The notes under the pieces were generated by a model that worked only from the letters and a program-made list of their open reading frames with translations, had not been told where the DNA came from and ran no database searches. Position numbers and translations under genes: made by a program. 64,000 nucleotides of DNA from a virus, in IMG/VR virus record IMGVR_UViG_3300025111_000052, positions 62,001 to 126,000 of that record, one strand, 5' to 3'. Numbering within the stretch: position 1 is the first letter of the stretch; the number at the start of each line of letters is the position of its first letter. Below are positions 24,184 through 53,886 of the stretch, one piece after another.

Positions 24184-25974
24184 ATGTCTTCAATCAGTAG
24201 CGTATCTAATTTTATATCTGAGTTACTACCTCAAATCAATAATTGGAAATCCGCCACCATTTGGGATAGTTTTAAAACAGAACCCAACTCAGCAAGTGCC
24301 TTTATACAAGACCTGATGAACACAAAATCAGCTCTTGATGTGGCACTTTTGCGTTTTAATGGTGCGGTTAGTGGTAAAGCCGCCGGCCAAGATTTGGACT
24401 ACAATAAATACTTTGAATATCCCAATACCAGATTATTTAAACTCGCTGCAGAAATAACCAAAGGCACTACAACAGATACTGAAAAAATGTATGCTGTTGA
24501 ACAATGGGTAAATAGCAATATTACTTATCAAACTGATGACATGAACTACGGCCCCGATGAGTACTGGGCTTACCCAACAGAGACGCTTTTACATAAGGAC
24601 GGGGATTGTACTGCTAACTATGAGGAAATTTGGACAAAGGATGGCCTCAAAGAAGTAGGCGCTTTACAAGTAGGGGACATAGTTCTATCTTATGACTTTA
24701 ACAAAAAAAGTTATTGTTATAAACCTGTGCTTAAAATATGGGAGAAGGGAAATCTACCTATTTTTAGGGTGAAATTTACTAATGGTACCTGGATAGACGT
24801 GACAGAGGACCACCCTTTCTGGACTAGGCGTGTACAAAAGTATTCTGACTATGAGAAAACTAAGCTATGTGATATAGACCTTAGCAGGTGGTGGAAACGT
24901 AAAATACCTTGTGTTAAAAAACTACCATATGTAATTAAAGACATTGACTGGCTTACCGAAGATTTATGTTTTGTTATAGGGCATTTTTTAGCTGAAGGTG
25001 ATACAGACCGTAGTCACGTTAGAACAAGTGGTTATGATGTACCCACAAGTATAGTACCTATTTTGGATAAATATAACATACCATATAGTATTACTACTAA
25101 TAACAGTGGTGTGCCCTACCTTAATTTTTTGAGCTCAAAGTTGAAGCAGTATTTAAGGCTTTGTAAAGTCAATAGTTTTGATATTAATATACCGGAAGAA
25201 CTATTTTACTTGCCAGCGAATAAACTATATGCTATAATAAATGGACACTTTCTTGGGGATGGTCATTACTCAAAATATGCTGAAAACTCTAACAAAGAAA
25301 AGACCTATTCAACTAGCTCGTACAAGTTAGCTTACGACCTACAGAGACTGCACATGCAGTTGGGCATACCTATTCATATGTGGTTACAAAAAGACCATAA
25401 AGGGGTGGGCAACAAACCCATATGGCGACTTAGTTATAACTCTAATAGCTATTTTGCAAAGGACTACGGGTACGACGGTATAAGCGAAGTGTCCATACAC
25501 AGTGTTAAACCTATGGGCAGCACCAATACTCGTGACTTTATGGTGGCTGATACTCATACGTTCGTAAGTAAGTTTGGTCATATATGCCATAATTGTGAGG
25601 ATATGGCTTTCCTTATAACAAGTTTGGCATTACATTCCGGTGTAGACCCCTCACGTTTAAGAATGTATGGTGGTTTAGTTAAAGCCGGCACAGGGGCTAT
25701 GTCAAGTAGCTCCATAGCGGGACATGGTTGGGGAGCATTCAAACGGGACGATGGTGAATGGGTGCCGATAGAGGGTTCATACTACGCCACTGACTTAGCA
25801 ATAGATGAAAGAGTACCACTTAAAGATAATTACAACTATGTAGAAGATTTCTGGTATGTCACAAAAGATGGTGTGGTAGATGCCACATGGCGTAATTACA
25901 TAAGAAATCCAGATCTGGGTGCTACGATGACTGCAGAACACTACAAAGGTTGGAGTATTAATACAAGGGTGTAA
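24184..25974 (+). CDS. transglutaminase-like cysteine protein interrupted by an intein
   Basis: The precursor is 596 residues; removal of residues 142-470 gives a 267-residue protein. The extein joins HKDGD to CEDMAFL, recreating the GDCED motif of transglutaminase-like cysteine proteases, with later HGWGAF (catalytic His) and WVPIEGSY (third acidic site region). So the Cys that completes splicing is also the enzyme nucleophile. Phage members of this fold are often virion or lysis-associated peptidases or cross-linking enzymes; this is inferred. Confidence 0.88.
   Translation: MSSISSVSNFISELLPQINNWKSATIWDSFKTEPNSASAFIQDLMNTKSALDVALLRFNGAVSGKAAGQDLDYNKYFEYPNTRLFKLAAEITKGTTTDTEKMYAVEQWVNSNITYQTDDMNYGPDEYWAYPTETLLHKDGDCTANYEEIWTKDGLKEVGALQVGDIVLSYDFNKKSYCYKPVLKIWEKGNLPIFRVKFTNGTWIDVTEDHPFWTRRVQKYSDYEKTKLCDIDLSRWWKRKIPCVKKLPYVIKDIDWLTEDLCFVIGHFLAEGDTDRSHVRTSGYDVPTSIVPILDKYNIPYSITTNNSGVPYLNFLSSKLKQYLRLCKVNSFDINIPEELFYLPANKLYAIINGHFLGDGHYSKYAENSNKEKTYSTSSYKLAYDLQRLHMQLGIPIHMWLQKDHKGVGNKPIWRLSYNSNSYFAKDYGYDGISEVSIHSVKPMGSTNTRDFMVADTHTFVSKFGHICHNCEDMAFLITSLALHSGVDPSRLRMYGGLVKAGTGAMSSSSIAGHGWGAFKRDDGEWVPIEGSYYATDLAIDERVPLKDNYNYVEDFWYVTKDGVVDATWRNYIRNPDLGATMTAEHYKGWSINTRV
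24607..25593 (+). mobile_element. intein with LAGLIDADG endonuclease (329 aa)
   Basis: Begins with Cys (CTANYEEIWT) and ends with HN before extein Cys. Block B-like histidine motif (TEDHPFW) and two LAGLIDADG-type helices (FVIGHFLAEGDTD and INGHFLGDGHYSK) are present, so it is a full intein able to home. Same reading frame as the extein throughout. Confidence 0.9.
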
Positions 25975-29440: not shown

Positions 29441-29511
29441 GTCCCGTTGGCAGACAGGCGTTGCGGCGAACTCTAAACTCGCTTAAAGGGGTTCAATTCC
29501 TCTACGGGACA
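29441..29511 (+). tRNA. suppressor-type tRNA (CTA anticodon, reads UAG)
   Basis: Acceptor GTCCCGT/ACGGGAC, D stem GCAG/TTGC with GG in the loop, anticodon stem GCGAA/CTCGC (last pair A-C mismatched) with loop CTCTAAA giving anticodon CTA, T arm AGGGG/CCTCT with loop TTCAATT, discriminator A. CCA not encoded. Every tRNA part is present; the CTA anticodon would decode amber codons. Amino-acid identity is not decided. Confidence 0.82.
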
Positions 29512-33506: not shown

Positions 33507-34283
33507 ATGAGTATGCAACAAGCACAAGGAAAAGGAAATAGTTTTGTATTAGTTAACTCAGCATTAGGAATGGAAGCAACCCACAATAAGGTGTACAAAG
33601 AACCTAAAAATAATATTAGAATAACCATTAGCAATAACCCCCTTAAATTAGCCGTAGCCAGGGTGTGTGCTGAATGGCTGTCTGCCGCTGACAGATCATG
33701 GACTTTTAATGGCAGTGTAGATAAAAATTCTGAGAGGCTTAGAAAGTATATCTCTTCTATGTTCCCAGAATTTACATGGCAGGTTATGCCATCTCAGTGT
33801 GCTTTTGATATCGTGTCTTTGGACGCTAAGGTAGCTATTGAAATTAAGTCGGTTAAAGGCAACAGTAAAAAATTGTTATCAAATGCCTCTATCTATCCTG
33901 AGCACGTTAAAGCAGTAGATATACTGCCTCGCAGAATGAAAGTGGGCGTGGCAGAGGACCTCATTTTAGATGTATTGGTGGTATGCGTAAGACGTACACA
34001 AGATGACATTGTTTATGACTATGCCATTGTTGATGGTAGCTTTTGGGGTTTTGAAGACAGTGATTTTACGGCCTGTAATGAAATGTTCGCTAATTTAAAT
34101 AGTGAGGAATTTATGGGGGATCTACTGGCACTGTATGTTGAACGCTATCCAGAATCTACACATTTTATTACAAAGCTTCAAAATGGAAGTTACGGCAACT
34201 CCTTTTCTTGTAATTTAAGAAAGCTTATTCAGATTGCTAATCCGGTAGGCCGCTCTTTGGATATGTCTGGGGTATGGATGTAG
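33507..34283 (+). CDS. putative PD-(D/E)XK nuclease-like protein, 258 aa
   Basis: The segment CAFDIVSLDAKVAIEIKSVK (about residues 98-117) has the D...(E)xK spacing of PD-(D/E)XK nucleases, with a Gln-rich N-terminus. The rest is unrecognised. Could be a recombination nuclease or inactive homologue. Followed 1 base later by the intein-bearing kinase gene. Confidence 0.55.
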   Translation: MSMQQAQGKGNSFVLVNSALGMEATHNKVYKEPKNNIRITISNNPLKLAVARVCAEWLSAADRSWTFNGSVDKNSERLRKYISSMFPEFTWQVMPSQCAFDIVSLDAKVAIEIKSVKGNSKKLLSNASIYPEHVKAVDILPRRMKVGVAEDLILDVLVVCVRRTQDDIVYDYAIVDGSFWGFEDSDFTACNEMFANLNSEEFMGDLLALYVERYPESTHFITKLQNGSYGNSFSCNLRKLIQIANPVGRSLDMSGVWM

Positions 34284-34284
34284 T

Positions 34285-35859
34285 ATGAAGAAAATTATAG
34301 CTATTAGCGGCACGCATGGTTGTTTTGGTAAAGGCACCTTAGTTAGAATGTATGATGGTACCATAAAACCAGTCGAACTTATAGTAGTTGGTGATGTTTT
34401 AATGGGGGATGACTCTACCCCAAGAAGAGTGTTGGAACTTAAAGACGGTAGGGAAGATCTTTATGAATTTGAATATATTGATGGAATAAAACATATTTAT
34501 AATGCAAGTCACGAGTTAGTATTACAATACTCACAATCTCGTAAAAGTGGGGCTACAAAAAGATCACTAAAAAAGCAACAATTAGGTGATATACGTATAA
34601 TAACAGTAAAAAATTATTTAAAATTAGGTAAACAAAAACAAAGAATTCTTTGTAAGTTTAATGCTGTTATTAAAAGAGCAGTAAGTAGTACCTTAGCAAT
34701 ACCGCCATATATACTGGGTGTTTGGCTTGGTGATGGGCATTCAGCAGGAACAAGATTAACTAATACAGATGAAATTATATTAAATACATTTAAGTGTTTC
34801 GCTGAAAGCAGAAATTTGTTTTTTAAACACGTTGGTAATACTAAGTATACTTATGGAATAACTAATGTTAGAGGTAAAGGGAATAGTTTTTTAGTTGATT
34901 TACAGAAATATAATTTAATTAATAATAAACATATACCCTTAGATTATTTTAATGCAAGTATAGAACAACGTTTATCCATTATAGCCGGTATACTGGATGC
35001 CGATGGACACTTAGATCAACGTAGTAAAGGTAGATATGAAGTAAAATTAAAGTCTAAACAACTAGCCTATGATTTATTTTATATTTCTAGAAGTTGCGGT
35101 ATACACACAACAATAAAAAAAGTAAAATGTGTTTGCACAAATAATGGTAAAGAGGGATATTATTATAGGGTAAATTTAACAAGAGGTATAGATATAATAC
35201 CATGTAAACTTGCACATAAAAAGGCGGTACAGGTAAAAAATCCTCAAAGAACAACATCAAGAGTGGGCATACGTAATGTAACCCCTCTTGGTATTGGCAC
35301 TTATTATGGATTTACTCTTGACGGTAATAATTTATTTCTCCATGCAGATGGTACAGTATTAAAAAACTCTGGAAAAAGCACCATAGCGTATAGTCTTTGT
35401 ACTAAAATGAAGTTGTCTGGTAAAAATGCCATAGTACTTGATGAGTTAGCTCGGAAATGCCCCTTTATTATAAATAAGGGGGCAGGTTCCCATACTCCAA
35501 GATGGTTAACATGTAAACAAATAACTGAGGAATTAGAATTACAAGATAAGGTTGATTTTGTTATTGCTGATAGGTCTGTAATGGACGCTTATTGTTACGA
35601 TCTTACTATACATGGCAGCAATTCTACAATGTCGGCCTATGAAGGTGTAATAAAGGACCATATACTAAATTTATATAAGACTATTTATATACCAAATATG
35701 GATATGTTTAACTTTCAGTTAGCTGATGGTGTACGTGATTTGGACCCTAAATTTAGAAGTGATGTAAATACTAATATACTAAATACATATAATAAACTAA
35801 ATATACCTTATAAAATAATTCATAATATAGATGATATATACAATGACTTGGGGTTATAA
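34285..35859 (+). CDS. P-loop nucleoside/nucleotide kinase-like ATPase interrupted by an intein
   Basis: Precursor 524 aa; removing residues 13-361 gives 175 aa. The extein joins ISGTHG to SGKST, so the intein splits the Walker A motif GTHGSGKST and the enzyme is inactive until splicing. The mature protein has DELARKCPF, a T..Q..E helix and ADRSVMD, the pattern of small AAA_28/NadR-kinase-like proteins, which phosphorylate nucleosides or ribosylnicotinamide. Substrate is not decided; a link with the NAD genes of the right end is only a possibility. Confidence 0.82.
   Translation: MKKIIAISGTHGCFGKGTLVRMYDGTIKPVELIVVGDVLMGDDSTPRRVLELKDGREDLYEFEYIDGIKHIYNASHELVLQYSQSRKSGATKRSLKKQQLGDIRIITVKNYLKLGKQKQRILCKFNAVIKRAVSSTLAIPPYILGVWLGDGHSAGTRLTNTDEIILNTFKCFAESRNLFFKHVGNTKYTYGITNVRGKGNSFLVDLQKYNLINNKHIPLDYFNASIEQRLSIIAGILDADGHLDQRSKGRYEVKLKSKQLAYDLFYISRSCGIHTTIKKVKCVCTNNGKEGYYYRVNLTRGIDIIPCKLAHKKAVQVKNPQRTTSRVGIRNVTPLGIGTYYGFTLDGNNLFLHADGTVLKNSGKSTIAYSLCTKMKLSGKNAIVLDELARKCPFIINKGAGSHTPRWLTCKQITEELELQDKVDFVIADRSVMDAYCYDLTIHGSNSTMSAYEGVIKDHILNLYKTIYIPNMDMFNFQLADGVRDLDPKFRSDVNTNILNTYNKLNIPYKIIHNIDDIYNDLGL
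34321..35367 (+). mobile_element. intein with LAGLIDADG endonuclease (349 aa)
   Basis: Starts CFGKGTLVRMYDG, ends ADGTVLKN before extein Ser. Two LAGLIDADG-type motifs (ILGVWLGDGHSAG and IAGILDADGHLDQ) and block B-like NASHELV are present. Inserted between G12 and the Ser of the P-loop, a favoured intein site. Confidence 0.9.
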
Positions 35860-35862
35860 ATA

Positions 35863-36925: not shown

Positions 36926-36970
36926 TTGATAGCTACTTAAAGGGCTGATGTTATTAAAGCATCAGCCCTT
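36926..36970 (+). promoter_or_regulatory. promoter within a strong hairpin upstream of the histidine kinase
   Basis: TTGATA (36926-36931), 17 bases, TGTTAT (36949-36954). A perfect 11-bp inverted repeat (AAGGGCTGATG at 36940-36950 and its complement at 36960-36970) encloses the -10; an earlier small hairpin AGAGTTT/AAACTCT lies at 36903-36918. For transcripts from upstream the hairpin may act as a terminator. Confidence 0.55.
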
Positions 36971-36988
36971 TATTATAGAGGTGGCAAT

Positions 36989-39900
36989 ATGACCCTAAAA
37001 GCAGTATTATTTAGCATCATACTAGTTTTATTAACACAAGCTACTTCTGCTAACGATTTAGTAGTAGGTGTGTTTGAAAATAAACCTATAACTTACTATG
37101 ACGAAGATAAAGCACAAGGCCTGTATGTAGATGTTTTGGATAATATAGCAGCTATGGAGGGTTGGAATATAACTTACAAAAGCTGTAATTTTTCAGAGTG
37201 CTTGGATGAACTAAAAACAGGTAAAATAGACCTATTACCAGCTATTGCAAAAACAGATTCTCTTGAAGAAACTCTTAGTTTCTCATCTATACCTTTATTT
37301 ACTTTTTGGGGTGTTGTTTATACACACACTAACACAAGTATAAATACTTTTACGGAGTTGAATAATAAGCGTGTAGGGGTTATAAAAGACACAGTAATTG
37401 CAAATTCTTTTTACGACTATTGCAATAGTGTTGGTATTAAACCTACTTTGTTATATTACCAAAGTTATGCTGAATTATTTAATAGTATAAGTAGTAATGA
37501 GACCACATTTATTGTGGCCAACAATATCCATGATGCTGCCGCGTTAAAAACATATAATATAAAAAGAACGGGTTTATTTTTTTCTCCCTCCACCGCACTA
37601 TTTGCTACACGTAAAGATCAACATTTAAACATACTATCCACTATTGACAATTATATGAAGGATTGGATAATAGATGAAGGATCACCGTACAGTGTTGCAT
37701 TGCATAAATGGTTTTCAAAACTACCTATACAACAAAAATATCCTAAATACGGTGTAAAAGAAGTAATACCTTACTTAGTGTTGTTTGTGGCAATAGTAGC
37801 CATATTGTTATTGTTTACAACTAAATTTGGTGGTAAACTTAATACAACCGCGTATTCCATAGTATTCTTTATTTGGACCGCACTTATAGCCAGCTCCTTA
37901 GGTTATAACCACACTAGAATACATAATATTATAGAACACACAGCTTTGCTTGAAGCACAAAACATTTTTGAAAAGGATTTATTGCTTAGATCCTGGATTA
38001 CTAACTATGGGGGGCTACCCAACTCTAATATGACAACTCATAAAAAAGAAACACATGCAAATGTGAAAGAGTGTCTTAATGGTAGTACTAGTAATCCTTT
38101 ATTCAATCCCAGCGTCGTAATGAGGTACTCATATACTACGCTAAAAAACTTTGATGAGGCTGGAGTAACATTAGATACCCACAAAGCAGCCAGCTCCGCC
38201 CGCATTCTGGGTTTTAATACAAAAGATCAGCCAGAACTTTGGGAAAACAAATTATTAGAGTCTATAAAAGAAGGTAAAAAAATAGAAAGCTACTATGTGG
38301 ATGATAACACTTTTAGGTATATACACACTATTTACGCAGTGGAGGGCTGTAAAGTATGCCACAAACAATTTAAGGATGGGGAATTAGTAGGCGCACTAAG
38401 TGTAAGCCTTCCAATGGATCATATGCATGACTTGGCAGATTCTAAAATGATAGTAGATTTATATTGCCATGCAGCAGTGTATATAATAGGTTTGTTTGGT
38501 ATTTTTCTTGCGTTACGATCAAATGAATTACGTCAACAAGACTTACAAAAAGCCTCAATACGCCTTATAGAAAATGAGAAAAAATATAAAGATTTGTTTA
38601 TGAACGCACCGTTGGCCTATCAATCCTTAGGCATACACGGTGAATTACTTGATGTTAATAATGCTTGGCTAGAATTATTAGGGTATAAAAAAGAAGAAGT
38701 ACAAAAACGTAATATATTAGATTTTGTTGATAAAAGATATCATACCTATATAAATGAGCAACTACCTAAATTAAAAAAAGTTGGTTATCTTTCTGGTATA
38801 GAATATATTTTAAATAAAGCTGATGGTACTCCAGTCTGGGTTAGTGTCAGTGGTAGGGTTGGTTATGATAACAATGGTAATTTTAAACAAACACATTGTG
38901 TTATTACAGACATATCTGAGCGCAAACAGGCGGAGGAAGAAACCAAGTTACTAAGCCAGCGTAAAGAAATACTTTTAGAACTTAGTCAGATGGAAGAAAG
39001 AGATGAGGCAAGTATATTTGCTTTTGTGGCCGAAAGTATTTCAAAACTTTGTGACAGTTCTATAAGCTATGTTAGTCTGGTTAATAGTGATGAAGATAAA
39101 ATAACCCAAGTAGCGTACAATGGCAAAGCTATGAGTGAATGCTCTAGGTCAGATAAATTAAATGTTACTTATAACTTAGATAAGTGTGGTGTATGGGCAG
39201 ATTGTTTGAGAACAAGAGAAGCCATTTTTATAAATGATTATCCTAATTATATAAATAAACGTGGTTTACCAGAGGGGCATGTGCCTATAACTAATCATAT
39301 GAACGTACCCGTATTTGATGGTAACAATATTGTAGCTATTTTTGGTGTAGGTAATAAAAATCATGGTGACTACAACAATAAAGACGTTGACCACTTGCTC
39401 AGCCTTGCCGATAATGTTTGGCGTATAATACAACGAAAACGTAATATAATAAAAACATTACGATTAGAAAAACAATTACGTGAAGCACAAAAAATGGAGG
39501 CCATAGGCACCTTATCTGGTGGGTTATCACATGATTTTAATAACATACTACAAATTATTTTAGGCTACTCTGATTTAATTATGCTGGAAATAAATAATGA
39601 GAAAACACCAAAAAAAGAGTATATACAAGCAATAGTAGAGGCTGCTAATAAAGGAGCCCGCTTAACAGGGCAGCTCAGATACTTTTCTGAAAAGGAAAGA
39701 AGTTTTAAAGAACCAATTAGCTTAAACAGATCAGTAGAAAGTACGGTAGAGCTTATGAAAAGAACTATACCTAAGATGATAAACATTGACTACTCCTTAG
39801 AAAAAGACCTATACCCTATTATGGCTGATGTTGGACAAATAGAGCAGGTTATAATGAATCTTGCTATAAATGCTGTACATGCTATGCCAGATGGTGGTGA

Positions 39901-40606
39901 TTTAAATATAATAACATGTAATACGCATATAGGTGCTGGGCATACAGAATTTAAAGAAGGCACCTATGTAGTACTTACGGTTAGTGATACTGGGTGTGGT
40001 ATACCACAAGAAAACATAAGCAAGATTTTTAATCCCTTTTTTACTACGAAAAAACAAACGACAGGTGGTTCAGGTTTAGGTTTATATGTGGTTTATGGTA
40101 TTGTAAAAAACCATTCAGGTTATATAACGTGTGATAGCGTAGTTGATCAAGGAACTACCTTTTGTATTTATTTACCGGCGGATAGAACCGCTGTTATCAA
40201 ACCGCCCACAGCGGTAATCACAGTAACAGATTATACTGAGGGCAATGAAACCATACTTGTGGTAGATGATGAAGAGTTTTTAACTGATTTAACTGAAAAT
40301 TACTTGACAACACAAGGCTATAATGTTATATTAGCTAAAAACGGTGAAGAAGCACTGGATATCTATAAGAAAACCTTTAAAATAGATTTAGTTATATTGG
40401 ATCTTAATATGCCTGGTATGGGTGGTATAGCTTGTTTGAAAAAACTATTGGAGTATGATCCTAAAGCCAAGGTAATAATTGCCAGTGGTTACTCAGATGC
40501 AGGACCTATTGGGGAAACAAAAACTATGGGGGCTTTAGGTTATTTAAATAAACCCTTCACATTAACTGATTTAGCGGTATTAATAAGACATGTATTAGAT
40601 AGGTGA
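36989..40606 (+). CDS. hybrid sensor histidine kinase with solute-binding, haem-binding, PAS and GAF modules and receiver
   Basis: 1205 aa. Order: signal/TM start; periplasmic SBP_bac_3-type domain (about 20-245); TM helices about 257-278 and 287-305; a second extracytoplasmic Tll0287/DUF3365-like domain with CKVCH at 454-458 (c-type haem site); TM about 490-510; PAS (about 525-650); GAF (about 665-825); HisKA with His848 in GLSHDFNN; HATPase with N box, DTGCGIP and GGSGLGLYVV; receiver with VVDDEE and phospho-Asp1138 (VILDLNMPG). A complete, apparently functional bacterial signalling protein, very unusual in a phage. GAGGTGG precedes the ATG. Confidence 0.93.
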   Translation: MTLKAVLFSIILVLLTQATSANDLVVGVFENKPITYYDEDKAQGLYVDVLDNIAAMEGWNITYKSCNFSECLDELKTGKIDLLPAIAKTDSLEETLSFSSIPLFTFWGVVYTHTNTSINTFTELNNKRVGVIKDTVIANSFYDYCNSVGIKPTLLYYQSYAELFNSISSNETTFIVANNIHDAAALKTYNIKRTGLFFSPSTALFATRKDQHLNILSTIDNYMKDWIIDEGSPYSVALHKWFSKLPIQQKYPKYGVKEVIPYLVLFVAIVAILLLFTTKFGGKLNTTAYSIVFFIWTALIASSLGYNHTRIHNIIEHTALLEAQNIFEKDLLLRSWITNYGGLPNSNMTTHKKETHANVKECLNGSTSNPLFNPSVVMRYSYTTLKNFDEAGVTLDTHKAASSARILGFNTKDQPELWENKLLESIKEGKKIESYYVDDNTFRYIHTIYAVEGCKVCHKQFKDGELVGALSVSLPMDHMHDLADSKMIVDLYCHAAVYIIGLFGIFLALRSNELRQQDLQKASIRLIENEKKYKDLFMNAPLAYQSLGIHGELLDVNNAWLELLGYKKEEVQKRNILDFVDKRYHTYINEQLPKLKKVGYLSGIEYILNKADGTPVWVSVSGRVGYDNNGNFKQTHCVITDISERKQAEEETKLLSQRKEILLELSQMEERDEASIFAFVAESISKLCDSSISYVSLVNSDEDKITQVAYNGKAMSECSRSDKLNVTYNLDKCGVWADCLRTREAIFINDYPNYINKRGLPEGHVPITNHMNVPVFDGNNIVAIFGVGNKNHGDYNNKDVDHLLSLADNVWRIIQRKRNIIKTLRLEKQLREAQKMEAIGTLSGGLSHDFNNILQIILGYSDLIMLEINNEKTPKKEYIQAIVEAANKGARLTGQLRYFSEKERSFKEPISLNRSVESTVELMKRTIPKMINIDYSLEKDLYPIMADVGQIEQVIMNLAINAVHAMPDGGDLNIITCNTHIGAGHTEFKEGTYVVLTVSDTGCGIPQENISKIFNPFFTTKKQTTGGSGLGLYVVYGIVKNHSGYITCDSVVDQGTTFCIYLPADRTAVIKPPTAVITVTDYTEGNETILVVDDEEFLTDLTENYLTTQGYNVILAKNGEEALDIYKKTFKIDLVILDLNMPGMGGIACLKKLLEYDPKAKVIIASGYSDAGPIGETKTMGALGYLNKPFTLTDLAVLIRHVLDR

Positions 40607-43783: not shown

Positions 43784-44530
43784 ATGAACGACGAGAGTAG
43801 TAATAATACAGCTATCTCAACACAAGAAATAGAATTAGCTGAATTACTTGATTCTTCTTACCCTTTGGCTAAATGGTTTAAATCTAAGTGCCCTGGCACA
43901 TTTAAACATAGCCAATCAGTGGCTTCTATGGCAGAAGCGGTAAGTGCGGAATTAGGACTTGATATTCAATTTATGAAGGTGTGTGCTGTTTATCATGATA
44001 TTGGTAAATGTGTTAATCCAAACATGTTTTCAGAAAACCAATTAGACAATGAAAATCCACATGATAGTTTAGACTCATGGATAAGTACTCAGATTATAAC
44101 AAGGCATGTTGCTGACTCAGTAAATATACTGCTTGGTGACCATAAATTTCCAAGAAGTGTTATAGAAGTTATAAGTCAACATCATGGTAACGATATAGCT
44201 ATTTATTTTTATTCAAGGGCAGGTAAAGATGCTGATCCAGATTCTTTTAGATATCCTTGCAGTAAACCTAAGTCAATAGAGGCTGCTGTGTTACTTATAT
44301 GTGATAGAGTAGAGGCCACTAGTAGGTCCCTAGTTCAATCTGGTAATTTTGATCCTGCCGCCGTATTAGAACAAACCATAAATGGTTTGCTTGATAACGG
44401 ACAGTTTGATGATGTAAACACCAAACTAGGTAACTTAAAGAAAATAAGGGCCGCTCTGGCCAAAGAACTTGAAGGTGTTTATCAAAAGCGTGTGGATTAC
44501 GCCTCAGCCATAGAGGAGATTAAAGACTAA
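43784..44530 (+). CDS. HD-domain phosphohydrolase resembling the PgpH c-di-AMP phosphodiesterase domain
   Basis: 248 aa, soluble. Metal and active-site residues in order: H42 (FKHSQSV), H71-D72 (YHDIGK), NPHD at 91-94, H108 (ITRHV), H133-H134 (SQHHG), D174 (CDRVEA). Spacing and accompanying motifs (ENQ..NPHD, SFRYP, AAVLL) match the cytoplasmic HD domain of 7TMR-HD proteins such as PgpH, which hydrolyse cyclic di-AMP. Here the seven-helix membrane part is missing. Substrate could be c-di-AMP or another cyclic (oligo)nucleotide. Confidence 0.82.
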   Translation: MNDESSNNTAISTQEIELAELLDSSYPLAKWFKSKCPGTFKHSQSVASMAEAVSAELGLDIQFMKVCAVYHDIGKCVNPNMFSENQLDNENPHDSLDSWISTQIITRHVADSVNILLGDHKFPRSVIEVISQHHGNDIAIYFYSRAGKDADPDSFRYPCSKPKSIEAAVLLICDRVEATSRSLVQSGNFDPAAVLEQTINGLLDNGQFDDVNTKLGNLKKIRAALAKELEGVYQKRVDYASAIEEIKD

Positions 44531-49761: not shown

Positions 49762-50892
49762 ATGGGATTCAGAACATTAGAAGGTGAGTTAGACAACCTC
49801 TTCTTCACTGATTATGAGCTGATAGATAGATTTGTAGGACATACTTTATTTTCTTGGGGTTACAATAACTTTGGGCAAATGGGTGATTCTTCCACTATTT
49901 CTAAATCATCCCCAATTCAGATAGGGGCACTTACTAATTGGAAACAAGTAAGTTCTATTGGTAATGTCTCTGCTGGTATCAAAACTGACGGTACGTTATG
50001 GATGTGGGGCTACAATAATAACGGACAGCTAGGTGATGGAACAATTGCGCCTAAATCATCCCCGATACAGGTAGGTAGTTTAACAGATTGGTTGTCTATA
50101 AAAGTTGGTTCTATAAATGCACTAGCTATAAAAACTGATGGTACCTTATGGTCTTGGGGTGCTAATAGCTACGGTCAGTTGGGCGATGGAACAATTGCCC
50201 CTAAATCATCTCCAATACAAGTAGGCAGTTTAACAGATTGGAAAGATGTAATTACATACGATTCACACGTTTTGGCTATAAAGACCGACGGTACTTTATG
50301 GTCTTGGGGTAGAAATACTTATGGGCAGCTTGGTGATGATACTGTGGTAGGAAAGTCATCTCCTATACAAATTGGAACTTTAACCGATTGGAAAGAGGTT
50401 GCTTGTAGTAGTTTATCTTCCCATGCCATAAAGACCGATGGTACTTTGTGGGCTTGGGGATATGCTTATGTAGGTGTATTAGGAGATGGTACTACTACAC
50501 GTAAATCCTCCCCGGTACAGATAGGAGCACTCACGGATTGGAAAAATCTTTCAGCTGGTTGGTTACACGTTTTAGCCATTAAGACAGATGGCACTCTTTG
50601 GGGATGGGGGTTAAACTACTACGGTCAAATAGGCGACGGTACTATTGTTGATAAATCATCCCCTGTTCAGGTAGGGGGTTTAACTGATTGGAAACAGACC
50701 TCCGCTTGGTCATCCAATTCTTTTGCTACTAAGACCGATGGCACTTTGTGGTCTTGGGGCCCTAATAACTACGGCCAGTTGGGAGATGGCACAATTGTAC
50801 ATAAGTCCTCTCCTATACAAGTAGGCTCATTAACAAATTGGAAACAGGTGGCTGGTGGAGCAACACCTCTTGTTGTTACATACGGAAACTAA
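49762..50892 (+). CDS. RCC1-repeat beta-propeller protein A
   Basis: 376 aa made of about seven 50-residue RCC1-type blades, each reading LWSWGxNxYGQLGDGT, KSSPIQVGxLTDWK and AIKTDGT. This predicts a seven-bladed propeller. An N-terminal 30-residue tag (FRTLEGELDNLFFTDYELID) may attach it to the virion. DNA repeats of about 150 bases run through it. First of three tandem paralogues; likely host-surface binding. Confidence 0.88.
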   Translation: MGFRTLEGELDNLFFTDYELIDRFVGHTLFSWGYNNFGQMGDSSTISKSSPIQIGALTNWKQVSSIGNVSAGIKTDGTLWMWGYNNNGQLGDGTIAPKSSPIQVGSLTDWLSIKVGSINALAIKTDGTLWSWGANSYGQLGDGTIAPKSSPIQVGSLTDWKDVITYDSHVLAIKTDGTLWSWGRNTYGQLGDDTVVGKSSPIQIGTLTDWKEVACSSLSSHAIKTDGTLWAWGYAYVGVLGDGTTTRKSSPVQIGALTDWKNLSAGWLHVLAIKTDGTLWGWGLNYYGQIGDGTIVDKSSPVQVGGLTDWKQTSAWSSNSFATKTDGTLWSWGPNNYGQLGDGTIVHKSSPIQVGSLTNWKQVAGGATPLVVTYGN

Positions 50893-50905
50893 ATGGAGGA
50901 TATAA

Positions 50906-51538
50906 ATGAAAGTATTAGTATCTAATAATAAAGTGATATTAGGGCCTACCTGGTGGAACCAGAATATGTTTCAATCTGTTTTAACAGATGAGCTAGGTTT
51001 AAATTTTACACTTCCAACTATTACGGAAGATTCAGCAGCATACTCAGTTAGTGATACTGTAAAGATACTTCCTGTTGAATTTACTGCTGTAAATTATGAC
51101 CACAGGATTCAGCAACTAGCCGGGCCTAATTGGACGATACAAGCGGATAAGGCTATCGCCAGCTACACCGTTGTAGATAGACCTATTGAAGCTGTACGTA
51201 ATGAACTTAAAGCAAAAGTGGCTAATCTTCGTTGGCAGAAAGAGGTTAGCGGTACAAAAATCACACTTCAAGACCAAGAAATAGGAGTTGCAACTGATAG
51301 GGAGACACGCAATATGTACTCACAGGCATTACTACTTGGTGTTGCTGGTGTTAATTGGAAGTTTGGTAATACATGGCTTGTATTATCTCTTGCAGATCTA
51401 CAAGTTCTGGTATCTGCTGTATTAGCACATATACAAGCGCAATTTGAATGGGAATCTGGCATAGTTACATCAATAAATAACGCGGTTGATTTAAATACTC
51501 TTACTGCAATAGATGATTCTCTTGATGTACTACTATAA
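50906..51538 (+). CDS. DUF4376-domain tail protein, 210 aa
   Basis: C-terminal half has RWQKEVSGTK and a helical segment seen in DUF4376 proteins, which are linked with phage tail fibres or fibre assembly. N-terminal half is beta-rich. Located between RCC1 proteins A and B. GGAGG upstream. Confidence 0.8.
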   Translation: MKVLVSNNKVILGPTWWNQNMFQSVLTDELGLNFTLPTITEDSAAYSVSDTVKILPVEFTAVNYDHRIQQLAGPNWTIQADKAIASYTVVDRPIEAVRNELKAKVANLRWQKEVSGTKITLQDQEIGVATDRETRNMYSQALLLGVAGVNWKFGNTWLVLSLADLQVLVSAVLAHIQAQFEWESGIVTSINNAVDLNTLTAIDDSLDVLL

Positions 51539-51553
51539 TACCGAGGTGTAAAG

Positions 51554-52732
51554 ATGACAATAACGACCAACTATAAAAGAGCAGATGGTTCTGACTGCGG
51601 TAACTTTGTCACAAAAGATTATTTGTTACGTGTTTACCCACAATTAGTACCGTCCTCAAAAAGGGCTAGTATATGGACTTGGGGACAAAATGCTAGTGGG
51701 CAATTAGGTGACAGTACTTTAATTGGTAAATCTTCACCAATACAACTCGGTTCCTTGGTAGATTGGAAAAACATTGCTGGTGGGTGGCAGCAAATGATAG
51801 CCACTAAGAATGACAACACTTTGTGGACTTGGGGCAACAATGTATACGGACAGTTGGGTGATGGTACAACCACAAGATCCATATCTCCGCAACAAATTGG
51901 GGCTCTTACGGATTGGGCAAGTGTTGCTTCTGGGCATATTTTTATGTTAGCTTTAAAAACTGATGGCACCATATGGTCTATCGGCGGATCTAATACTGTC
52001 GGACAACTTGCAGATGGTACAACTATTTCTAAATCATCCCCAATTCAGATAGGGGCGCTTACTAATTGGATATCGATAGCCAGTGGGGGTGGGCATGGCG
52101 CAGCTATAAATTCGAGCGGCGCACTCTGGATGTGGGGAAGTAATACAGACGGCCAGTTAGCGGATGGGACTTTGGATAGTAAATCCTCTCCAATTCAGGT
52201 AGGGAGTTTAACTGATTGGAAGCAAGTTTCTTGTGGCCAATTATATACCCTTGCTTTAAAATTGGATGGTACCTTATGGTCCTGGGGCTATAATAATGGT
52301 GGCCAACTTGGAGATGCTACTAGTGTGGGTAAATCATCACCGGTACAGATAGGCTCCTCGACCGACTGGGCTAGCTGTGAGGCGGGGCAATATCATGCAG
52401 CAGCCATAAAAACCGATGGTACCTTGTGGACTTGGGGTGCTAATAACTACGGACAGCTGGGTTTGGGTTCTGTGCTTACAGCAAACTACTCTTCACCAGT
52501 ACAAGTAGGCTCCCTTAGTAATTGGAAAAAAGTATCTTGTGGATATAGTTATACCACAGCTTTAAAAACGGACGGCACTATTTGGACTTGGGGCTTTAAT
52601 ACCGATGGGCAACTTGGGGACAACACAAATGTACATAAGTCATCTCCAATCCAAGTCGGGGGTCTAAATAATTGGAAAAACATTTTCGGATGTAATACCA
52701 GCGTAATAGCTATAACAGATTTAAATTATTAG
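51554..52732 (+). CDS. RCC1-repeat beta-propeller protein B
   Basis: 392 aa, about seven RCC1 blades with the same repeat signature as protein A. The tract 52022-52070 is identical to 49894-49942 in gene A but for one base, pointing to recent recombination. Short N-terminal attachment tag differs from A and C. Likely adhesin. Confidence 0.88.
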   Translation: MTITTNYKRADGSDCGNFVTKDYLLRVYPQLVPSSKRASIWTWGQNASGQLGDSTLIGKSSPIQLGSLVDWKNIAGGWQQMIATKNDNTLWTWGNNVYGQLGDGTTTRSISPQQIGALTDWASVASGHIFMLALKTDGTIWSIGGSNTVGQLADGTTISKSSPIQIGALTNWISIASGGGHGAAINSSGALWMWGSNTDGQLADGTLDSKSSPIQVGSLTDWKQVSCGQLYTLALKLDGTLWSWGYNNGGQLGDATSVGKSSPVQIGSSTDWASCEAGQYHAAAIKTDGTLWTWGANNYGQLGLGSVLTANYSSPVQVGSLSNWKKVSCGYSYTTALKTDGTIWTWGFNTDGQLGDNTNVHKSSPIQVGGLNNWKNIFGCNTSVIAITDLNY

Positions 52733-52740
52733 GAGATAAA

Positions 52741-53886
52741 ATGTCAAATCCAACAGGCTATAAATTTACTTATAATGATCAGGTAGTAGATTTTAATGAC
52801 TTGTTCACCCGGAGAGATTTATTTGACTTTGGTAATTTATTTACATCCGGTGATAACGAATTCGGCGCCATAGGCGATAGCACACAAGTACACAAATCAT
52901 CTCCAATTCAAGTGGGTGGTTTTAATAATTGGAAACTAATTGCAGGCGGTTACAGACAATTTTCTGCAATTAAAGCTGATGGTACCTTGTGGTCATGGGG
53001 TAGAAACCATTACGGTCAATTAGGGGATAGCACTTTGGTAGATAAATCATCCCCAATACAAGTAGGAAATCTTACTGATTGGCATACACTGGCTAGCGGG
53101 CGTGTCCATCTAGCGGCTATAAAAGAAGATAACTCACTATGGGCTTGGGGTTATAATGGTTATGGCCAACTTGGTAACAATAGCATAGTTAATACATCAT
53201 CTCCAATACAAGTAGGATCTCTCACTAATTGGCAGCATATTTCCTGTGGTACATACCATACTGCGGCCCTTAAAACAGATGGAACTATTTGGACTTGGGG
53301 TTTTAATGATAGCGGTCAATTAGGTGATGGGACGGTTGTGTCTAAATCATCCCCAATTCAAGTTGGCTCTGACACAGATTGGGCATTGATAAATTGTGGG
53401 TACTACGCTACCATGGCAATTAAAAATGATGGTTCCCTTTGGCTATGGGGTGATAACGCCTTAGGACAGCTTGGAGATGGTACAACAACACCAACAAGTT
53501 CACCTGTGCAACTTGGGTCACTTACTGATTGGAAATCGGTATTGGGTGGTTTCAATTTTACGGTTGCAATTAAAACTGATGGTAGCTTGTGGTCTTGGGG
53601 ACGAAATCTTCGTGGTAATTTAGGTATCGGTACTTTTGAGGATAAATCATCTCCTATACAAGTGGGCGCTATGACAGACTGGAAAACGGTGGCCTTAGGT
53701 TATAGCCATGTATTAGCAATTAGAACTGATGGTACACTATGGGGCTGGGGTTATAATACGACTGGAACACTAGCTTTGGGTGACATAGTAGATAAGCCTA
53801 CTCCCACCCAAATTAGTTCTAGAACAAACTGGAAGAGCATAGGTTGTGCTAACTTCACATCAGGTTTTATTACATATGCAAATTAA
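52741..53886 (+). CDS. RCC1-repeat beta-propeller protein C
   Basis: 381 aa with about seven RCC1 blades and an N-terminal tag (YNDQVVDFNDLFTRRDLFDF). Third tandem copy, last gene before the converging terminator. Likely surface-binding, variant of A and B. Confidence 0.88.
   Translation: MSNPTGYKFTYNDQVVDFNDLFTRRDLFDFGNLFTSGDNEFGAIGDSTQVHKSSPIQVGGFNNWKLIAGGYRQFSAIKADGTLWSWGRNHYGQLGDSTLVDKSSPIQVGNLTDWHTLASGRVHLAAIKEDNSLWAWGYNGYGQLGNNSIVNTSSPIQVGSLTNWQHISCGTYHTAALKTDGTIWTWGFNDSGQLGDGTVVSKSSPIQVGSDTDWALINCGYYATMAIKNDGSLWLWGDNALGQLGDGTTTPTSSPVQLGSLTDWKSVLGGFNFTVAIKTDGSLWSWGRNLRGNLGIGTFEDKSSPIQVGAMTDWKTVALGYSHVLAIRTDGTLWGWGYNTTGTLALGDIVDKPTPTQISSRTNWKSIGCANFTSGFITYAN

Follow-up and report, generated by a model that had tools for sequence, protein, structure and literature searches.

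A phage-encoded hybrid sensor histidine kinase with solute-binding and haem-type sensor domains, and its candidate REC-HD-GYP partner

Systems akin to the one treated here are known from bacteria. RpfC/RpfG consists of a hybrid sensor kinase plus a regulator in which a receiver (REC) is joined to an HD-GYP domain, and in Shewanella, nitric oxide (NO)-responsive H-NOX/kinase/HD-GYP networks couple haem sensing to a kinase that feeds receiver-linked cyclic-di-GMP (c-di-GMP) enzymes. Phages are usually described as hijackers or inhibitors of host two-component systems, not as carriers of their own. Here we analyze a hybrid sensor histidine kinase gene on the 152,034-base virus record IMGVR_UViG_3300025111_000052 (G000), of which bases 62001-126000 constitute the window, the whole 64,000-nucleotide stretch that was analyzed and to which positions refer unless stated otherwise. 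The record is probably incomplete and stems from a large bacterial virus that has not been cultured; a search with one terminase family revealed no terminase in it. The locus was compared with that of a 234-kb relative, G001, in which a terminase gene is present and whose kinase stretch is named L003, and with two further stretches carrying it, L002 and L004. A sequence-only reading had described a complete, phage-encoded hybrid kinase with a periplasmic solute-binding domain and a haem-type sensor; that observation was confirmed, and the interpretation attached to it was partly supported.

Architecture of the kinase and its sensors

The gene is a single open reading frame (ORF). Its product has the domain order SBP_bac_3, two transmembrane segments, Tll0287-like domain, transmembrane segment, PAS, GAF, HisKA, HATPase and REC, and contains the following features (aa, amino acids), all on the plus strand:

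36989..40606, +, hybrid sensor histidine kinase gene, 1,205 aa (ORF and Pfam; identical in L002 and L004, 69% identical and syntenic in L003)
36989..37054, +, predicted signal peptide or first hydrophobic helix, aa 1-22 (sequence reading)
37058..37609, +, SBP_bac_3 periplasmic binding domain, aa 24-207 (Pfam 43.9 bits, cut-off 26.4; relatives in the PDB, GlnPQ and AncQR)
37760..37909, +, two hydrophobic helices, about aa 258-280 and 288-307, putatively transmembrane (sequence reading)
37907..38458, +, Tll0287-like/sCache_heme domain, aa 307-490 (sub-cut-off in Pfam; bacterial profile alignment; profile match to 5b82)
38348..38362, +, CKVCH, putative c-type haem attachment motif, aa 454-458 (CxxCH invariant in L003 and aligned to that of the family)
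38465..38518, +, third hydrophobic helix, aa 493-510, putatively transmembrane (aligns with the hydrophobic helix that follows bacterial Tll0287 domains)
38636..38920, +, PAS domain, aa 550-644 (PAS_9, 47.8 bits, cut-off 27)
38999..39433, +, GAF domain, aa 671-815 (GAF_2, 80.9 bits, cut-off 28.6; dN/dS 0.05)
39509..39697, +, HisKA dimerisation and phosphoacceptor domain, aa 841-903 (26.6 bits, cut-off 26.9; invariant in six aligned cores)
39530-39532, +, phosphoacceptor H848 in SHDFNN (sequence; six-core alignment)
39827..40183, +, HATPase_c with N and G boxes, aa 947-1065 (84 bits, cut-off 26.4; invariant residues)
40253..40582, +, receiver (REC) domain, aa 1089-1198 (Response_reg, 84.9 bits, cut-off 30.2)
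40400-40402, +, phosphoacceptor D1138 of the receiver

SBP_bac_3, PAS, GAF, HATPase_c and REC score above their cut-offs, and HisKA and the Tll0287-like domain marginally below; HisKA is 0.3 bits under, with H848 and the HDFNN motif invariant. All that characterizes a HisKA-type hybrid kinase is present, namely the phosphoacceptor His, the N and G boxes of HATPase_c, and a C-terminal REC with its Asp, so that the described completeness, comprising H848, the ATP boxes, D1138 and CKVCH, holds. The core is CckA-like; identity with CckA was rejected because the NCBIfam equivalog NF046020 scores 321 bits against a curated cut-off of 1000. Judging from the hydrophobic segments, the SBP and Tll0287-like domains would be periplasmic and the remainder cytoplasmic.

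The SBP_bac_3 fold probably extends to about aa 245, and its counterpart in the L003 orthologue scores 33.7 bits (cut-off 26.4). The domain is akin to GlnPQ-type amino-acid binders. The carboxylate-binding Arg of the TxER motif (usually TDER) is missing from the window kinase, which has TDSL, and from L003, which has TAAL; since it is missing in both phages, the ligand is probably not an ordinary amino acid.

The assignment of the second sensor domain required more evidence. Pfam (PF11845) detects it at aa 401-475 with 23.0 bits, just below the gathering cut-off of 24.1, and does not list it in the L003 orthologue at E 0.01. A bacterial Tll0287 profile and the phage domain nevertheless find each other, with the CxxCH placed on the CxxCH and the next GELVGALSVSLPM strand also aligned, and a multiple alignment extends the likeness from the first helix through the following hydrophobic segment. 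Likewise, the membrane helix that comes first in bacterial Tll0287 proteins is matched in the alignment by the kinase helix at about aa 288-307. A profile including the phage row (three of its four rows being bacterial) matches the Tll0287 crystal structure 5b82 with E 1.3e-15; a single-sequence search of the PDB with this stretch gave a chance match only. The CKVCH at aa 454-458 lies where Tll0287/sCache_heme proteins have their CXXCH, in an insertion before the last strand. Because the bacterial profile, the whole-domain alignment and the match to 5b82 all support it, we consider the Tll0287 call good despite the Pfam score. An AlphaFold prediction for the sensor region, based on an alignment of two rows, was unusable (mean pLDDT 37).

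The sCache_heme family has been described as a c-type-haem Cache domain in a 2026 preprint, according to which one member that was tested, joined to a signalling module, binds NO and does not form a stable complex with O2 (PMC12889525). By this precedent, NO would be the best guess for the ligand of the phage haem domain; the latter is about 20 residues shorter after the CxxCH, so that its ligand may differ. The earlier suggestion of a redox sensor thus keeps its haem-type signal, and the word redox is better replaced by c-type haem, with NO proposed from the preprint. The Tll0287-like domain is frequent in Desulfuromonadia-type genomes (131 of 146). A pattern-limited search revealed no further virus contig with such a domain, and there was no CxxCH among the other viral kinase ORFs examined.

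Conservation and origin of the kinase

The kinase locus is unchanged in two further virus contigs, G002 and G003. The orthologue in G001 is syntenic and 69% identical over its full length, and it retains unchanged the phosphoacceptors H848 and D1138, the N and G boxes and the haem-site residues C454/C457/H458; the least conserved part is the signal-peptide segment at aa 1-22 (36% identity). The record could in principle be an assembly chimera or contain host contamination, for which nothing speaks beyond its being a metagenomic contig. The same locus is present in four assemblies, and G000 and the terminase-bearing G001 are collinear over about 120 kb. We regard this explanation as next to impossible, and indeed as refuted by the syntenic orthologue: an assembly join at the borders of the gene, which the sequence-only reading had named as the result that would overturn it, is contradicted by G001, where the kinase occupies the corresponding position with its reading frame preserved and among the same neighbours.

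Between G000 and G001 the kinase has diverged to the same extent as the neighbouring genes (dS, synonymous divergence, 1.44), with a ratio of nonsynonymous to synonymous divergence (dN/dS) of 0.14. By domain, the ratio is 0.05-0.09 for GAF, HisKA, HATPase and REC, 0.18 for the Tll0287-like domain and 0.28 for the SBP domain. Given the low overall value and the higher ones in the sensor domains, the gene is being maintained while its sensor changes faster than its transmitter. Chance falls far short of explaining the domain and residue pattern, purifying selection acts on it, and the sequence evidence indicates that the hybrid sensor kinase is very probably functional. Together, the domain tests, the three further assemblies, synteny and selection support both the claim that the kinase is phage-borne and the claim that its design suits the detection of a solute in the periplasm and of a haem-type signal.

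A tree of the kinase core, proposed earlier as a means of finding the donor, did not reveal a specific one. Sampling was centred on the class of the Geobacteraceae metagenome-assembled genome (MAG) G004, which is of Desulfuromonadia type. Phage and bacterial cores are 36-43% identical; a long stem (0.66 changes per site) leads to the phage pair, which has no close bacterial relative and only a weakly supported neighbour. At the strict threshold of E <= 1e-40, which leaves room for weaker kin, the sensor region had no match in 574 genomes (277 of the class and 297 of the phylum). Bacterial kinases of similar layout do occur: L072, in the Desulfuromonadia-type genome G150 from the same class as G004, is SBP-PAS-GAF-GAF-HisKA-HATPase-REC, and L071, in the deltaproteobacterial MAG G005, is SBP-PAS-PAS-PocR-HisKA-HATPase-REC. 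The nearly identical architecture of these two kinases, together with the fast evolution of the sensor domains, could suggest a captured bacterial gene that is functionless in the phage and drifting. This is very improbable, as the gene is intact in two phages at dS of about 1.4 and dN/dS 0.14 with all catalytic residues kept, and the long stem argues against a recent capture.

A candidate output regulator and the proposed pathway

It had been stated that no cognate output regulator is visible and that the receiver may feed a host regulator. The first statement is correct for the partial 152-kb record, in which no receiver besides that of the kinase itself was found. It does not extend to G001, which encodes a single kinase and a single canonical free response regulator, which is RpfG-like and is listed here with its neighbour:

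G001 190494-191570, -, REC-HD-GYP response regulator, 358 aa
G001 189629-190480 (L020 859-1710), 283-aa protein encoded next to the REC-HD-GYP gene, with a receiver below threshold and a hydrophobic helix

The HDIGK and HHERLDGSGYP motifs and the receiver Asp and Lys of the regulator are intact, and its nearest structures are 5z7c, a 3'3'-cGAMP-specific phosphodiesterase, and 4mcw, a metal-dependent phosphohydrolase. Another contig, G566, which has terminase, portal and major head protein genes, carries a 94% identical orthologue of the regulator and an 89% identical orthologue of the 283-aa protein (L163 6013-6861). The median amino-acid identity to G001 is 83.8% for G566 and 85.9% for G000. 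The two are thus about equally distant from G001, and G566 has a sample number close to those of G002 and G003; on these grounds G566 is probably a piece of the genome of the phage to which the window belongs. Separately, a few genes downstream of the kinase, window 43784-44530 encodes an HD-domain protein (43.6 bits, dN/dS 0.04) that is weakly similar to the HD-GYP regulator.

To see how often the two proteins occur together, IMG/VR was scanned for both. The kinase-core scan gave 106 confirmed relatives, and co-occurrence was read from the best 80 of these. The REC-HD-GYP scan gave 43 proteins, 10 of them full length, which became 8 after removal of G566 and one of an identical pair. At least five of these eight non-redundant full-length regulators lie on contigs that also carry a kinase of this type, those among the matches listed being 3300037692_000137, 3300040781_000188, 3300028920_000044, 3300037086_000360 and 3300019850_000189. 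Three of the five have a terminase; 3300037086_000360 gave no match, and 3300040781_000188 was outside the terminase check. In 3300040781_000188 and 3300028920_000044, the periplasmic sensors of the kinases are of the SBP_bac_3 and ABC_sub_bind types, and the kinase cores share a supported clade with that of the window (96% SH-aLRT). Among the ten full-length regulators, those of the same two contigs are nearest to that of G001. These two contigs are related to each other and have few genes in common with G000 and G001.

L253 (6143-11215) and L256 (10378-14703) come from related phages. Their hybrid kinases are orthologous and yet have different periplasmic domains, ABC_sub_bind in one and SBP_bac_3 in the other, which is a case of sensor swapping between phages. 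Both have a single-domain receiver gene directly upstream.

We tentatively propose, at somewhat less than an even chance, a phage-borne pathway that runs from periplasmic solute and haem sensing through the kinase to the phage REC-HD-GYP protein and the hydrolysis of a cyclic dinucleotide, and of which we infer the phosphotransfer partner, ligands, substrate and benefit. The periplasmic SBP_bac_3 and c-type-haem Cache domains, with the cytoplasmic PAS and GAF domains, would control autophosphorylation of H848, from which phosphate would pass to D1138 and then, directly or via a host histidine phosphotransfer (Hpt) protein, to the regulator. In the infected cell, the regulator would, once phosphorylated, hydrolyse c-di-GMP or 3'3'-cGAMP. 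The phage would thereby tie a host signalling nucleotide, reflecting motility or biofilm state or acting as a defence signal, to the input sensed by the cell; it might gain host dispersal or motility, a switch tied to redox state or NO, or the elimination of a nucleotide used in defence.

Several points weigh against this proposal. In G001, kinase and regulator lie about 170 kb apart. G566 and G000 are fragments without overlap, and the placing of G566 in the window's phage is itself an inference. The pairing contigs 3300028920_000044 and 3300040781_000188 are not independent because they stem from related phages, and the overlap of the pair is suggestive, not proof, because large contigs favour any pair. 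Among the folded domains, the SBP domain evolves fastest, and its pocket is missing the customary Arg; from its sequence it may have an unusual ligand or none. No Hpt domain (PF01627) was found in G000, G001, G002 or G566, so that the relay of a hybrid kinase would depend on an Hpt protein of the host or on direct transfer from H848.

Some of these points would fit a different role, in which the kinase is an auxiliary host-takeover gene that has no partner of its own in the phage and feeds host Hpt proteins or response regulators, and the phage HD-GYP regulator answers host kinases. The kinase is a hybrid without an Hpt, the regulator is absent from the window's own record, the two genes are not adjacent, and potential partners abound, with more than 100 matches in each of the bacterial genomes with similar kinases. 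The repeated co-occurrence of kinase and REC-HD-GYP in phages, and the presence of exactly one of each in G001, speak against this role, which we consider rather unlikely. The earlier suggestion of a host regulator is weakened by the regulator of G001, its 94% orthologue on G566 and the recurrence of the pairing in other phages.

The regulator could also be a counter-defence phosphodiesterase, for example against cyclic-nucleotide defence, with the kinase timing its activation. Jumbo-phage HD-GYP enzymes have been proposed as counter-nucleotide defences (PMC7824862), and the nearest solved relative is a 3'3'-cGAMP phosphodiesterase. A periplasmic solute and haem sensor would be an odd switch for an enzyme that is needed immediately, and the fusion to a receiver suggests graded control; we hold this explanation to be improbable.

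If the proposed kinase-to-regulator pathway is extended to other phages, some large phages might possess a dedicated, self-contained pathway in which the kinase, whose periplasmic sensor can be exchanged (SBP_bac_3, ABC_sub_bind, or SBP together with c-type haem), phosphorylates a REC-HD-GYP protein that lowers a cyclic dinucleotide, tuning host behaviour or defence to NO or solutes outside the cell; we put this forward with greater caution, giving it about one chance in three. With an intact, selected transmembrane sensor and a recurrent phage REC-HD-GYP protein, sensing of the outside by phages to set a host second messenger becomes testable. If true, periplasmic haem/NO sensing, cyclic-dinucleotide control and infection strategy would be linked.

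Neighbouring features and comparison with known systems

Upstream of the kinase, one further feature was analyzed:

36939..36971, +, 12-bp RNA hairpin that shortly precedes the ribosome-binding site (fold z = -5.0)

It ends 17 bases ahead of the start codon and is the most stable among 60 upstream regions of the record; L003 has a hairpin of unrelated sequence at the equivalent position. The gene had been said to follow a promoter within a hairpin. The strong hairpin exists, and promoter-like sites near it are at chance level (57 found, 54.9 expected), with none inside it. A scan found no consensus terminator there, and the hairpin may be the terminator of the preceding gene or a leader element.

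Other parts of the genome also drew attention. At window 34150-35860, a nucleotide-kinase-like gene is split by an intein with a LAGLIDADG endonuclease; the tract is nearly identical between G000 and G001 (dS 0.03) and lies within flanks of about 70-85% identity, which indicates a recent exchange of the homing type. A transglutaminase-like protein at 24184-25974 has an intein/LAGLIDADG insertion as well and is 96% identical to G001. A tRNA gene with a CTA anticodon (29441-29511; Pyl according to ARAGORN) is a potential amber suppressor, of which no copy was found in L003. Recoding of TAG was rejected, since opening TAG lengthens ORFs little and 15 of 71 ORFs end in TAG. Three related ORFs at 49762-53886, of which that at 51554-52732 consists of RCC1 repeats, have no counterpart in G001. 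The same is true of G000 from 128 to 152 kb (L013, L014), which has a higher GC content (41%) and encodes COOH.NH2 ligases and ATP-grasp, glutamine amidotransferase, RuvB-like, TROVE, CCA-adding-like and RNA-polymerase-like proteins.

The locus resembles RpfC/RpfG in combining a hybrid kinase with, in relatives, a REC-HD-GYP protein of intact motifs, and differs in lacking an Hpt, in its input domains, in its non-adjacent genes and in being phage-encoded. With the Shewanella H-NOX networks it would share haem-based sensing coupled to a kinase, and an HD-GYP output; the phage haem domain is of another kind, being predicted as periplasmic and c-type, and is part of the same polypeptide as the kinase. 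The CxxCH, the helix-Cache-helix layout and the flanking motifs are those of sCache_heme (DUF3365/Tll0287, PF11845) proteins, unlike which the phage domain is about 20 residues short after the CxxCH, has an extra insertion ahead of it and is placed behind an SBP domain. The bacterial SBP-type hybrid kinases L071 and L072 are alike in general plan, with a C-terminal REC and a CckA-like HDFNN core that is about 36-42% identical to that of the phage kinase, and lack the Tll0287 haem domain. Other phage-borne histidine kinases, such as those in IMG/VR and the sasA-annotated kinase of Microcystis phage MaAM05, are likewise found on virus contigs, many with a terminase, and have mostly PAS-only sensors among ten examined; INPHARED phages gave matches to the kinase core only, many of these records being unannotated or apparently bacterial. 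Phage-borne hybrid kinases recur and bacterial kinases share nearly this design, so that the kinase alone is not new in kind; the noteworthy part is the combination with a haem sensor and the recurrent phage REC-HD-GYP partner.

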